DNA of 32,973 nucleotides from Methanobacteriota archaeon (lineage in GTDB: Archaea; Thermoplasmatota; Thermoplasmata; RBG-16-68-12), in the NCBI GenBank assembly GCA_005878525.1, contig VBMB01000143.1:1-32973 (forward strand). The letters run 5' to 3'. Below are positions 22,883 to 25,516 of the stretch, in pieces. The notes under the pieces are model-generated. The model was not told the DNA's origin, searched no databases, and saw nothing but the letters and a program-made list of their open reading frames with translations. A program made the position numbers and the translations under genes. The first letter of the stretch is position 1; each line of letters opens with the position of its first letter.

Positions 22883-23599
22883 TCAATGTTTTCGGCGGAG
22901 TTCCTCTCGGAAGGTTTTCGGTGCGCGTTCCGTTGCCACGGAGATGACGATCCGTGGCAGGCCGCGTGCGTGTTTCCGCAGGAAGGCCTCAGTGCGCCGT
23001 CGATCCTTCTTCCAGCACTCCCGGAGCCACGTACCAACCGCACGTTGGACCCAGAATTCCTCATCGTACAGAAGTTTCTCCAGGAGTTGGAAGGGCCGAT
23101 CGAGTTCGCCCGCCCGGACGAATCGGTGGAGTGCGTAGGTCGATGCGCGTCGCCGCCAGGTGTTCTTCGCGCGAGTCCATCGAAGGATGTCTCGGAATCG
23201 GGACGCCTTCGCGTACACCATCCCCGCGATCGGGCCGGAGGCGAGACCATCGCTCAGTCCCCATCCGGTCGCGGCGTCGACCCAGCCGTCCGCGAGCCTC
23301 CACGAGTCGTCGTCGATAATCTTTTCGTACCGGCCAAGGAGAAGTATCGCAAGCGACTTCTCTTCGAAAACCGGGCCGGACCAGAGCGCGTCGGCGAGTG
23401 CGTTCACCTCCCCGGCGCCCAAGGTCCGATGCTCCTTCGCAAATGCTGCGACGATCGCGCGCACCGTCGGCACGGTCAGGCCGAGGACCGGCACCGGCGA
23501 ACCGACATACGATCGGAGATCCGCCGGAGCAGACGCCTTCGGCGCATTACGAAGTTTCTCGACGAGTTGATTCCTCGCGGCCCGGACGTCGAGCGGCAT
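22883..23599 (-). CDS. AlkD-like DNA alkylation repair protein
   Basis: A 238-residue all-helical protein built of HEAT-like repeats (DNA alkylation repair family). Visible are VPTVRAIVAAFAKEH, EKSLAILLLGRYEKII, the WVDAATGWGLSDGLASG segment in the place where AlkD carries its Asp/Trp pair, and the late block EEFWVQRAVGTWLRECWKKD followed by AFLRKHA. AlkD glycosylases remove bulky alkylated bases such as N3- and N7-alkylpurines. ATG 23599 is preferred since CCTTTATGG (minus strand, 23624-23634) is about 29 bases upstream. ATG 23653 with the AT-rich box at 23674-23681 is the alternative and would add 18 residues. It is divergent from the SDR gene. Confidence 0.85.
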   Translation of the reverse strand: MPLDVRAARNQLVEKLRNAPKASAPADLRSYVGSPVPVLGLTVPTVRAIVAAFAKEHRTLGAGEVNALADALWSGPVFEEKSLAILLLGRYEKIIDDDSWRLADGWVDAATGWGLSDGLASGPIAGMVYAKASRFRDILRWTRAKNTWRRRASTYALHRFVRAGELDRPFQLLEKLLYDEEFWVQRAVGTWLRECWKKDRRRTEAFLRKHARGLPRIVISVATERAPKTFREELRRKH

Positions 23600-23623
23600 C
23601 GATTCGAGAGGAACCGCGACGGG

Positions 23624-23681
23624 CCATAAAGGTGCCATCGGCCGATGCGACATTGATTCGAGCCGCGTCGGACGTTTATAC
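23624..23681. promoter_or_regulatory. Divergent promoter region between the AlkD-like and SDR genes
   Basis: On the minus strand CCTTTATGG at 23624-23634 is about 29 bases before ATG 23599. On the plus strand GTTTATAC (23674-23681) lies about 50 bases before ATG 23730, implying a leader of about 25 bases. The second box is also TATA-like on the minus strand (GTATAAAC). Confidence 0.45.
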
Positions 23682-23729
23682 ATTTTGTAAACGAGAAGCG
23701 AGATAAATCGCCGATGGCCTTCTTCGGAC

Positions 23730-24485
23730 ATGGCGCGGTGTTCGAATGCTGGTACTCCCGCTCACGCGGAACGCGTCGCCCTGATCACGGGGGCGAGCCG
23801 CGGCCTCGGATATACCGTCGCGGAGTTCCTCGCCCGGCAACGTTGGACCCTCATCCTCACGGCGCGTCACGAAGTTCCGTTGCTCGAGGCCGTGAAGCGC
23901 CTTCAGGCCACTGGCGCCTCGATCAGCGCCGTCCCCGGTGATGTGGCGCACGATCAACACCGACGCGACCTGGTCGCCGCGGTCCGCCGCGTAGGTCGTC
24001 TGGATATTCTGTTCAACAACGCTTCCGAACTCGGCGCTTCCCCGTTCCCCGCCCTGGTGGACTTCCCGCTCGACGTCCTCCGACGCGTGTTCGAGGTCAA
24101 CGTCATCGCGCCGCTCGCGCTCATCCACACATGCCTTCCGGTCCTGAAGAAATCGCGAGGCCTTGTCGTGAACATCACCAGCGACGCCTCACGCGGCGGA
24201 TATCCCGGGTGGGGCGGCTACGGGAGCAGCAAGGCCGCGCTCGACCTCTTGAGCAAGACGCTCGCGAACGAACTACGCGAAGCCGGCGTCGGCGTCGTGG
24301 CGGTCGACCCGGGCGATCTCCGGACGCAGATGCACCAGGATGCGTTCCCGGGACAGGACATCAGCGACCGGCCACTCCCGGAGGTCACGCTGCCGTTCTG
24401 GGCGTGGCTCGAGGGCCAAGACCCGTTGCGAATCACAGGCCAGAGGTTCGAGGCCCAAGGCACCGTCTGGGAGGTGCCCGCATGA
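23730..24485 (+). CDS. Short-chain dehydrogenase/reductase
   Basis: A 251-residue classical SDR. TGASRGLG (residues 20-27) binds NAD(P), ILFNNAS is near 93-99, and FEVNV holds the conserved Asn124. The catalytic residues are Ser151 (NITSDAS), Tyr164 and Lys168 (YGSSK). GVVAVDPGDLRTQM is the usual PG motif with a variation. A basic residue after the first strand (LTARHE) suggests NADP use (inference). The 13-residue N-terminal tail before ERVALIT is longer than needed, and ATG 23730 is the only good start. Its last codons overlap the next gene by ATGA, so the SDR and the QueA-like protein are made together. Substrate is unknown. Confidence 0.88.
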   Translation: MARCSNAGTPAHAERVALITGASRGLGYTVAEFLARQRWTLILTARHEVPLLEAVKRLQATGASISAVPGDVAHDQHRRDLVAAVRRVGRLDILFNNASELGASPFPALVDFPLDVLRRVFEVNVIAPLALIHTCLPVLKKSRGLVVNITSDASRGGYPGWGGYGSSKAALDLLSKTLANELREAGVGVVAVDPGDLRTQMHQDAFPGQDISDRPLPEVTLPFWAWLEGQDPLRITGQRFEAQGTVWEVPA

Positions 24486-25516
24486 AACGTCAGGAACTCG
24501 TCTTCGAGCAACCGCGCGAACTGTTCGCCTCGACACCCGTCGAAACCGAACACGGGGCCCGCGATGCGGTGCGTCTCCTTGTGACGACGCCATCGGGGCA
24601 CCGGCACGCGACGTTCGCCGACTTGCCGCGATTCCTCTCCGCGGGAGACCTCCTCGTCGCGAACGAAAGCGCGACATTGGCGGCGAGCCTCGAGGCCCAC
24701 GGGCCCTCCGGTTCGTACACGCTCGACCTGAGCACGCGATATGCGGACGGCCTGTGGCTCGCCGAGCCCCGGTGGGATCCGGCCCATCCGGGCCCCATGC
24801 CGATCGAGGCGGGCGAAGAGGCCCGCGTGGGCGACGCGACGGTCCGGTACGTCGCCCCGTATCCGGGAATCCCGAGGCTTTGGTTCATCACCGCGGACCG
24901 ACCGCTCGAGCCGATCCTCCAACGTGCGGGCGTGCCGATTCACTACGGTTACGTTCAGAAGGTCTGGCCCTTGGACGCGTACCAGAGCCTGTTCTCCCGG
25001 GTTCCTGGGAGTGCGGAGATGCCCTCCGCGGCGCGACCGATCACCCCGAAGATTCGGGAGGCGCTCGAAGTCGCGGGCGTCCGGTTCACGTCCGTCCTCC
25101 TCCACTCCGGCGTCAGCAGCCTCGAGATCGAGACGGACCAGGTGGAGGAACAGGCCGTGTACCCGGAGCCGTTCGAGGTCTCATCGGCCACCGCCGACCT
25201 GGTGAACCGCACTCGGGACGGCGGCCATCGCGTCATCGCCATCGGGACCACGGTCGTCCGCGCGCTCGAGTCCGCATGGACGCCGGACGGCGTGCGACCT
25301 CGACGAGGATTCACCCGTCTCTTCGTCCATCCTGGAAATCCCGTCCGATCGGTCGACGGATTGCTGACGGGCTTCCACGACCCCGTCACGAGCCACCTCG
25401 CGATGCTCGCGGCGTTGATCGGGCTACCGCGCGTCATGGAGGCGTACCGCGCGGCGATCGCGAGCGGATACCGGTGGCACGAATTCGGGGACAGCCACCT
25501 CATCCTGCGAAAGTGA
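24482..25516 (+). CDS. QueA-like S-adenosylmethionine:tRNA ribosyltransferase-isomerase family protein
   Basis: A 344-residue protein of the QueA family. Landmarks are FLSAGDLLVANESATL (the QueA DLLVxNxT-type strand), HYGYVQKVWPLDAYQSLFS, VRFTSVLLHSGVSSLEIE, a YPEPFEVSSATADLVNRTRDGGHRVIAIGTTVVRALESA block that is very characteristic, and VDGLLTGFHDPVTSHLAML. True QueA transfers ribose from SAM to preQ1 in bacterial tRNA. This sequence resembles a shorter branch common in actinobacteria, with HSGVSS in place of the canonical HVGLGTF, and no other queuosine gene is seen here. Archaea make archaeosine and normally lack QueA, so the role may differ. ATG 24482 overlaps the SDR stop. The SDR partner suggests a shared pathway (inference). 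Confidence 0.85.
   Translation: MKRQELVFEQPRELFASTPVETEHGARDAVRLLVTTPSGHRHATFADLPRFLSAGDLLVANESATLAASLEAHGPSGSYTLDLSTRYADGLWLAEPRWDPAHPGPMPIEAGEEARVGDATVRYVAPYPGIPRLWFITADRPLEPILQRAGVPIHYGYVQKVWPLDAYQSLFSRVPGSAEMPSAARPITPKIREALEVAGVRFTSVLLHSGVSSLEIETDQVEEQAVYPEPFEVSSATADLVNRTRDGGHRVIAIGTTVVRALESAWTPDGVRPRRGFTRLFVHPGNPVRSVDGLLTGFHDPVTSHLAMLAALIGLPRVMEAYRAAIASGYRWHEFGDSHLILRK

Follow-up and report, generated by a model that had tools for sequence, protein, structure and literature searches.

In contig VBMB01000143.1 of a Methanobacteriota archaeon from the Thermoplasmatota order RBG-16-68-12 (GenBank assembly GCA_005878525.1), whose 32,973 nucleotides we refer to as the window, we identified a two-gene unit that encodes a short-chain dehydrogenase/reductase (SDR) and a divergent relative of QueA, the tRNA preQ1(34) S-adenosylmethionine ribosyltransferase-isomerase. 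The QueA-like protein belongs to a branch of its own, and its gene is consistently preceded by the SDR gene in archaea and bacteria. Unlike with QueA, most of the bacterial hosts searched have no TGT or QueF, and redox-type regulators lie near about half of its loci. Queuosine is not the job of this pair. We consider it slightly more likely than not that the pair forms a widespread pathway responsive to redox conditions, its QueA-like member applying S-adenosylmethionine (SAM) to some acceptor different from preQ1-tRNA.

The QueA-like protein matches PF02547 over residues 5-341 with 240.6 bits (cut-off 25) and is thus a full-length member of the family. It shares fold and length with QueA but scores below both NCBIfam cut-offs for the QueA equivalog (TIGR00113/NF001140; 188.6 versus 324 and 157.1 versus 267.45 bits). 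An AlphaFold2 model built from 40 sequences had a mean predicted local distance difference test score of 94.8, and a Foldseek search with this model returned, at E <= 0.001, solely four PDB chains of the QueA-family entries 1vky, 1wdi and 1yy3; the same three entries were the only solved relatives found at E <= 0.001 by sequence search. The model superimposed on the QueA structures with a TM-score on the query of 0.54-0.59 and a root-mean-square deviation of 9-10, values that we provisionally take to reflect domain orientation and unresolved loops. The canonical motifs APTAGLHF, HxGxGTF, TNFHLP and YGDAM are replaced by EMPSAxRP, HxGVSSLE, TGxHxPxxSH and HEFGDS, and HSGVSS occupies residues 208-213, where the canonical sequences compared have HxGxGTF.

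A tree of 73 proteins separated the SDR-linked proteins from 17 rows comprising canonical QueA, two plasmid paralogues and one viral QueA, with 99% support in the Shimodaira-Hasegawa-like approximate likelihood ratio test. This was a quick tree of unknown root, uneven in composition and with one very long row (L051). It was drawn from 85 rows (28 of the best 80 relatives, 20 of the first 30 PF02547 loci of the phylum, plus others), of which 12 shorter than 270 residues were dropped, including seven canonical archaeal proteins, both extra QueA proteins of the bacteria G429 and G432 described below, L157, L168 and L175. When 15 canonical rows were compared with 53 SDR-linked rows, excluding L051 and the rhizobial rows, 25 near-invariant columns proved equally conserved on both sides, among them G255-T256-T257, L207-H208, E229, T296, H299 and G336-D337. 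Nine columns were switched at >=85% on both sides (canonical to SDR-linked, in the numbering of the QueA-like protein: P153I, P155Y, A179E, T182S, L185R, T213S, N297G, F332W and S334E), and H305 and H333 reach 98-100% within the SDR-linked branch; a rhizobial QueA-like protein has seven of the nine switched residues. This pattern suggests a kept SAM core and an altered acceptor side, a reading that we infer from residue conservation, since the QueA crystal structures have no substrates bound according to the accessible part of PMC10491745.

A search of 84,980 named genomes confirmed at least 578 relatives, and we used the 80 that scored best; going by record titles, these comprise about 44 Actinomycetota, 12 Chloroflexota, 13 archaea and 11 others. 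A script placed an SDR gene directly upstream on the same strand in 107 of 115 QueA-like loci, mostly from Actinomycetota, Thermoplasmatota and Chloroflexota, a count that includes four contigs taken twice (L084/L067, L085/L071, L094/L041 and L095/L038) and one untyped fragment (L042). In six of the eight exceptions the contig ends 2 to 328 bases upstream of the gene; L114, where the SDR is in fact present, was missed by the script, and L162 has an intervening gene. The corresponding figure for canonical or other QueA was 0 of 41 loci, which count two genomes twice (G293 and G360) and mostly have 1.5-kb flanks, enough for an adjacent gene. In archaea, the SDR gene overlapped or abutted the QueA-like gene in all 27 loci examined, each with the latter whole (in L068 the SDR runs to the contig end), with overlaps of 4 bases in 19, 8 in six and 11 in one, and one abutting pair; the start codon nearest the SDR stop was chosen in this count, so the exact 4-base figure leans on that choice. 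In addition, the distance matrices of the two proteins across 42 loci correlated with r = 0.89, a value reached by none of 5000 permutations (highest 0.43), shared organism history contributing to the correlation. The adjacency is not chance.

An initial annotation of the window, made from its sequence alone, had proposed that a divergent QueA-family gene marked by HSGVSS is coupled to an SDR gene by an ATGA overlap at positions 23,730-25,516. Both reading frames are real and lie where it placed them, and the scores below the cut-offs, the motif and the 99% branch confirm the divergence. The phylogeny and the cross-genome count that it suggested as checks separate the SDR-linked kind from canonical QueA and tie this branch firmly to the SDR. 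Beyond what it had noticed, many bacteria share the pair, and redox-type regulators are associated with it.

The partner has the signature of a classical SDR (TGASRGLG, NNAS, S151, Y164 and K168). Across an alignment of 42 partner SDRs, T20, G21, G25, L26, G27, N97, N124, S151, Y164 and K168 show conservation of 90% or more, and R46 hardly varies; a conserved arginine after the second strand makes the enzyme probably NADPH-dependent. Its closest solved relatives are 3i1j, an unnamed SDR (E 8e-31), and then the YciK entries 3iah and 3f1k (E 1e-24 to 3e-24). The SDR fold is common to all of these, but most partner SDRs differ in having their own segment like PGDMRTxMHQ, and no pairing of YciK with QueA is known to us.

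Pfam scans of neighbouring genes, 47 upstream and 34 downstream, revealed no conserved third enzyme in the operon; the frequent families were regulators. These neighbours were picked by a GC-frame rule, as clustering of open reading frames gave unusable clusters, many of them antisense. Among the 25 most frequent neighbour families, no non-regulator family occurred in more than two of the 47 upstream genes, and HAD/ACT phosphatase-like proteins were found in three to four of the 34 downstream genes. In L162 (1913-5011), from Actinomadura kijaniata, a major facilitator superfamily (MFS) transporter gene stands between the two genes and may export or import substrate or product. The SDR-linked kind is also present on rhizobial plasmids: large plasmids of Rhizobium etli (L164 and L166) hold a soxR/SDR/QueA-like cassette whose QueA-like proteins are very divergent (branch length 2.4). 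Phage records gave 21 untyped matches, at 24-36% identity among the 20 listed. We rejected the idea of a phage cargo gene, as the single viral contig that matched in one scan (L171) encodes canonical QueA by motif and tree.

The host assembly comprises 2.02 Mb in 165 contigs and is 81% complete. Its TgtA scores 480.6 bits and its ArcS 473.1 bits, each above its cut-off (350 and 440, respectively), and the host is therefore an archaeon with the archaeosine route. A contaminating or bacterial contig was rejected on the same evidence and because 10 further genomes of the order carry the gene with 59-95% identity across all or nearly all of its length. Within the order, 24 of 37 genomes match the QueA-like protein, eight of them with the canonical kind at 31-33% identity and several with fragments or weakly, and two genomes of the same genus that are 98% and 94% complete (G415 and G401) have no match; the gene is accessory and patchily distributed. 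Across the phylum, PF02547 was present in 82 of 389 genomes: 57 canonical-scoring (best E 1e-86 or lower), 20 with a best E of 1e-36 to 1e-75, and five with fragments only, one of which (G009) also scores in the intermediate range. An SDR gene adjoins the gene in 18 of the 20 intermediate-scoring genomes, and the other two (G010 and G323) hold untyped fragments. QueF exceeded its cut-off in 18 of 30 tested phylum genomes with canonical-scoring QueA (for example G034 and L012), although some of these matches may be QueF-like, and queuosine or a relative may be made there. Queuosine pathways, complete or partial, have already been described for 34 archaeal genomes, as far as the accessible text of PMC8204110 goes. 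That text, too, describes QueA-family genes in archaea, but it covers QueA with QueH and Tgt, whereas the QueA-like gene has an SDR partner in a genome without QueF over the cut-off.

We searched for the queuosine pathway in 36 chosen pair-bearing genomes, 19 of them archaeal and 17 bacterial isolates from the best 80 relatives. TGT was present in 19/19 archaeal and 3/17 bacterial genomes, strong QueC (E < 1e-40) in 19/19 and 4/17, and QueF over its cut-off in 0/19, with two weak matches below it, and 2/17; 12 of the 17 bacteria lacked all three. A further PF02547 match occurred in three bacteria: Thermosporothrix (G432) has a full-length canonical-scoring protein (5e-138), Ktedonospora (G429) two adjacent strong pieces, and Bailinhaonella a weaker match in two pieces. 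QueF and TGT occur together in Thermosporothrix and Ktedonospora. In the host genome, at 81% completeness, neither QueF over the cut-off nor a second PF02547 gene was found, and its TGT is of the archaeal TgtA type, so that neither a preQ1 supply nor a TGT for tRNA position 34 was apparent. Import of preQ1 would be no help to a genome without TGT. Actinobacteria and Tenericutes account for most species without tgt among 1134 analysed, according to the accessible part of PMC10570037. Bailinhaonella (G422) and Nonomuraea solani (G423) have strong QueC and no TGT, as if preQ0 served something besides tRNA, and the second PF02547 gene of Bailinhaonella lies in two pieces (L175).

These results bear on the remaining claims of the initial annotation. 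The archaeal host that it assumed stands, and neither marker evidence for a bacterium nor a complete queuosine pathway, both of which it had named as grounds for withdrawal, appeared in the 81% complete assembly. Its proposal of a role outside queuosine synthesis is supported, given that 14/17 bacteria lack TGT and 15/17 lack QueF over the cut-off. Its premise that archaea have no use for QueA was too broad in view of the 57 canonical-scoring genomes, and its suggestion of a 7-deazaguanine acceptor has lost ground: the pair occurs in bacteria without TGT (14/17) and without strong QueC (13/17), which makes a shared 7-deazaguanine substrate unlikely.

The genes around the pair point to redox-type control. 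In bacteria, Pfam identified MerR proteins among 9/47 upstream genes and GAF/HisKA_3 kinases with LuxR-type regulators among 8/47; all five MerR proteins tested exceeded the SoxR cut-off, and the R. etli records annotate soxR beside the pair. In R. etli CFN42 the pair is encoded by RHE_RS29345 and RHE_RS29350. Within 1.5 kb, searches seeded with these kinds of regulator found a SoxR, SufR-like or kinase/NarL gene in 61 of 111 distinct SDR-linked loci (SoxR in 14, SufR-like in 20, and for kinase/NarL 21 histidine kinases and 14 response regulators), compared with 0 of 37 canonical loci, a control of 34 archaeal and three bacterial loci that is fair for SufR-like genes and weak for SoxR and kinases. 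SoxR of many bacteria responds to redox-cycling compounds. Using a SoxR-box consensus, we found the best SoxR-type palindrome of the whole locus at the soxR-SDR junction in 14/14 SoxR loci, with 0 to 4 mismatches, and these loci thus combine a soxR gene with a predicted SoxR site at the promoter. In several of them the palindrome overlaps the longest reading of soxR or of the SDR gene, indicating that the gene's true start lies further in. Among 68 loci without SoxR, a palindrome with <=3 mismatches occurred anywhere in four and with <=4 in nine; two such loci (L115 and L152) have one just before the SDR gene.

In the Thermoplasmatota, a SufR-like gene lies directly upstream of the pair in six loci of family f4 and in L035, and among ten loci of family f7 it is divergent in three and on the 3' side in one. 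SufR was the best NCBIfam family for each of seven regulator proteins scanned, and inspection of the sequences by eye showed three conserved cysteines spaced C-x12-C-x27 or 28-C, a pattern that resembles the cluster ligands of characterised SufR. Ten promoters of the genus, family and order align over a palindrome-like operator, eight of them matching GTTTRTANANTTTGTAAAC with <=2 mismatches; L069 and L074 in the alignment, and L071 outside it, depart further. At this stringency GTTTRTANANTTTGTAAAC has a single site in the 2.0-Mb host genome, upstream of the pair, compared with none for a reversed-pattern control, and no further site that would define a wider regulon was found there. Over 1.33 Mb of fetched loci, overlaps included, 27 matches with <=2 mismatches represent about 18 distinct sites. 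Fifteen of these precede the pair or its operon; the others comprise a site next to an unlinked SufR-like gene (L185), another in front of the SufR-like gene of L194, and a third on an AT-rich plasmid (L168). The operator is also found upstream of the pair in other families: family-f7 loci gave six matches versus 0.1 per single-base-shuffled replicate, and the junction of divergent SufR-like and SDR genes carries it with no mismatch in L044 and L047 and with one in L051. Across the order, 10 genomes have both the pair and a SufR-like gene, five the pair only, five the regulator only and 17 neither (Fisher p = 0.016), counting fragments as presence, taking E < 1e-30 for the regulator and drawing on incomplete metagenome-assembled genomes; among genomes at least 90% complete the numbers are three, one, none and eight (p = 0.018).

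Several observations weigh against this picture of one stress-linked unit under redox control. The SufR-like proteins score 100-126 bits (archaeal ones 100-114) against a SufR cut-off of 178.8 and do not qualify as the SufR equivalog; the host's own copy is split between reading frames, and no regulator adjoins the pair in the window. Pair and regulator part company in five genomes of the order each way, and SufR-like genes occur in 7/7 searched family-f7 genomes without the pair, so this regulator also serves elsewhere. At 46 of the 111 loci, no SoxR, SufR-like or kinase/NarL gene was found within 4 kb. NarL-type genes are common, several kinase loci come from the single genus Nonomuraea, and the canonical control, weak for SoxR and kinases, consists mostly of 1.5-kb flanks. 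Three of the 14 SoxR loci have palindromes with four mismatches, a level also reached somewhere in 9/68 loci without SoxR. Finally, long branches in the tree lead to both rhizobial proteins and to several of the ten from family f7.

For QueA, the proposed reaction comprises deprotonation and depurination of SAM, addition of the amine to a vinyl sulfonium, closure of the ylide to an epoxide and loss of methionine, as set out in the accessible part of PMC10491745. By analogy, the SDR and the non-canonical QueA-type enzyme would act on one substrate chain: the latter would deprotonate SAM and expel adenine to give a vinyl-sulfonium intermediate, to which a nucleophile of the acceptor, other than preQ1 in tRNA, would add before a five-carbon ring closes and methionine is lost. 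The SDR would make a carbonyl or amine acceptor, or else reduce a carbonyl in the product. That the enzyme keeps the QueA mechanism with a different nucleophile, while the SDR prepares or finishes its carbonyl partner, seems to us slightly favoured. In many bacteria, SoxR or a GAF-domain histidine kinase paired with NarL would mediate a response of the operon to redox or iron-sulfur (Fe-S) stress; in Thermoplasmatota the putative SufR-like regulator would do so by way of the GTTTRTANANTTTGTAAAC operator. Control of the SoxR and SufR kind suggests that the product matters under such stress. A bolder reading, which we hold tentatively and put just short of even, is that this would be the first QueA-type system outside 7-deazaguanine metabolism, a stress-induced one, shared by bacteria and archaea, that would convert SAM's ribose into a cyclopentyl substituent of a small metabolite and for which different lineages would have independently recruited Fe-S or redox sensors.

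Other explanations were weighed against this pathway. The pair might modify a 7-deazaguanine in tRNA, in DNA or as the free base, in archaea possibly within the archaeosine route, and the TGT and strong QueC of every searched archaeal pair genome, together with TgtA and ArcS in the host, would fit; but archaeal TGT and QueC are expected irrespective of the pair, and with 12/17 bacterial pair genomes devoid of TGT, QueF over the cut-off and strong QueC together we regard this as very improbable. The enzyme could instead modify another amine-bearing RNA nucleoside, with the SDR finishing the side chain. Its QueA fold is kept over the whole length, and tRNA is the substrate of the one characterised enzyme with this fold according to the accessible text of PMC10491745. 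SoxR-type control and an accessory, patchy distribution would, however, be unusual for a tRNA modification, and the 25 most frequent neighbour families include none that binds RNA, which leaves this explanation unlikely.

Detoxification has a little more in its favour, although we still think it unlikely: the SDR would reduce a quinone or carbonyl of foreign redox-active compounds sensed by SoxR, and the QueA-like enzyme would cap the product. The promoter palindromes of the SoxR loci and the response of SoxR to redox cyclers agree with this, but Thermoplasmatota and kinase-linked loci have other regulators, and a transporter gene lies inside the pair at one locus only (L162). Alternatively, the QueA-like protein might merely degrade SAM to adenine, methionine and a pentose-derived aldehyde that the SDR clears. 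An SDR is a natural aldehyde reductase, and the 25 columns shared with canonical QueA could serve depurination; the branch's own invariant residues (E179, S213, G297, H305 and E334) nevertheless suggest a specific second substrate, and SAM breakdown appears to us quite improbable. The preferred reading remains a redox-responsive pathway with a different acceptor.

Plasmid-borne QueA paralogues from Sinorhizobium, Streptococcus salivarius and Geobacillus (L167, L168 and L170) are likewise non-canonical, and E179 and E334 are common to L167, L170 and the SDR-linked branch. They differ from the QueA-like protein in having no SDR upstream, and in the tree, which excludes L168, both L167 and L170 join the canonical side. 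Their neighbours include, in varying mixes, genes for thymidylate synthase, PqqD, radical SAM proteins, diaminopimelate decarboxylase and aminoglycoside phosphotransferase, resembling a biosynthetic cluster, and these paralogues may represent another use of QueA chemistry.

The features of the unit in the window are collected in Table 1. The element AGATAAATC would be the TATA box of the operon. On the minus strand at window positions 22883-23731, and transcribed away from the SDR gene, lies a DNA-alkylation-repair gene (PF08713). Its longest reading begins inside the SDR start, so the actual start codon probably lies deeper within the repair gene, and the two genes would then share a promoter region.

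Table 1. Positions of the SDR/QueA-like unit and its upstream elements in the window
Feature	Coordinates	Strand	Remarks
SDR, operon gene 1	23730..24485	+	251 amino acids; PF00106 148.5 bits
QueA-like protein (PF02547), operon gene 2	24482..25516	+	344 amino acids; PF02547 240.6 bits
ATGA overlap, SDR stop/QueA-like start	24482..24485	+	read in sequence; relatives overlap similarly
Palindrome-like operator GTTTATACATTTTGTAAAC	23674..23692	none	aligned in 10/10 loci of same genus, family or order
TATA-box-like element AGATAAATC	23701..23709	+	about 25 nucleotides 5' of SDR start; similar AT-rich element in aligned relatives

A literature search over titles and the beginnings of abstracts, with most subscription papers outside its scope, found no paper on the SDR/QueA-like pair; as far as could be seen, the fold family is known and the branch, its partner and its regulation are undescribed. 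The accessible part of PMC10491745 describes QueA chemistry, in which SAM donates the pentose and a sulfonium ylide is proposed, for a single reaction. Another widespread branch, with a partner of its own and seemingly under stress regulation, would make a new SAM-dependent reaction available for study. In addition, surveys that count COG0809 or PF02547 as queA credit a queuosine step to organisms that have this branch alone, Actinomycetota included. The recurrence of the pair in many bacteria and archaea without a queuosine pathway points to an unstudied use of SAM.

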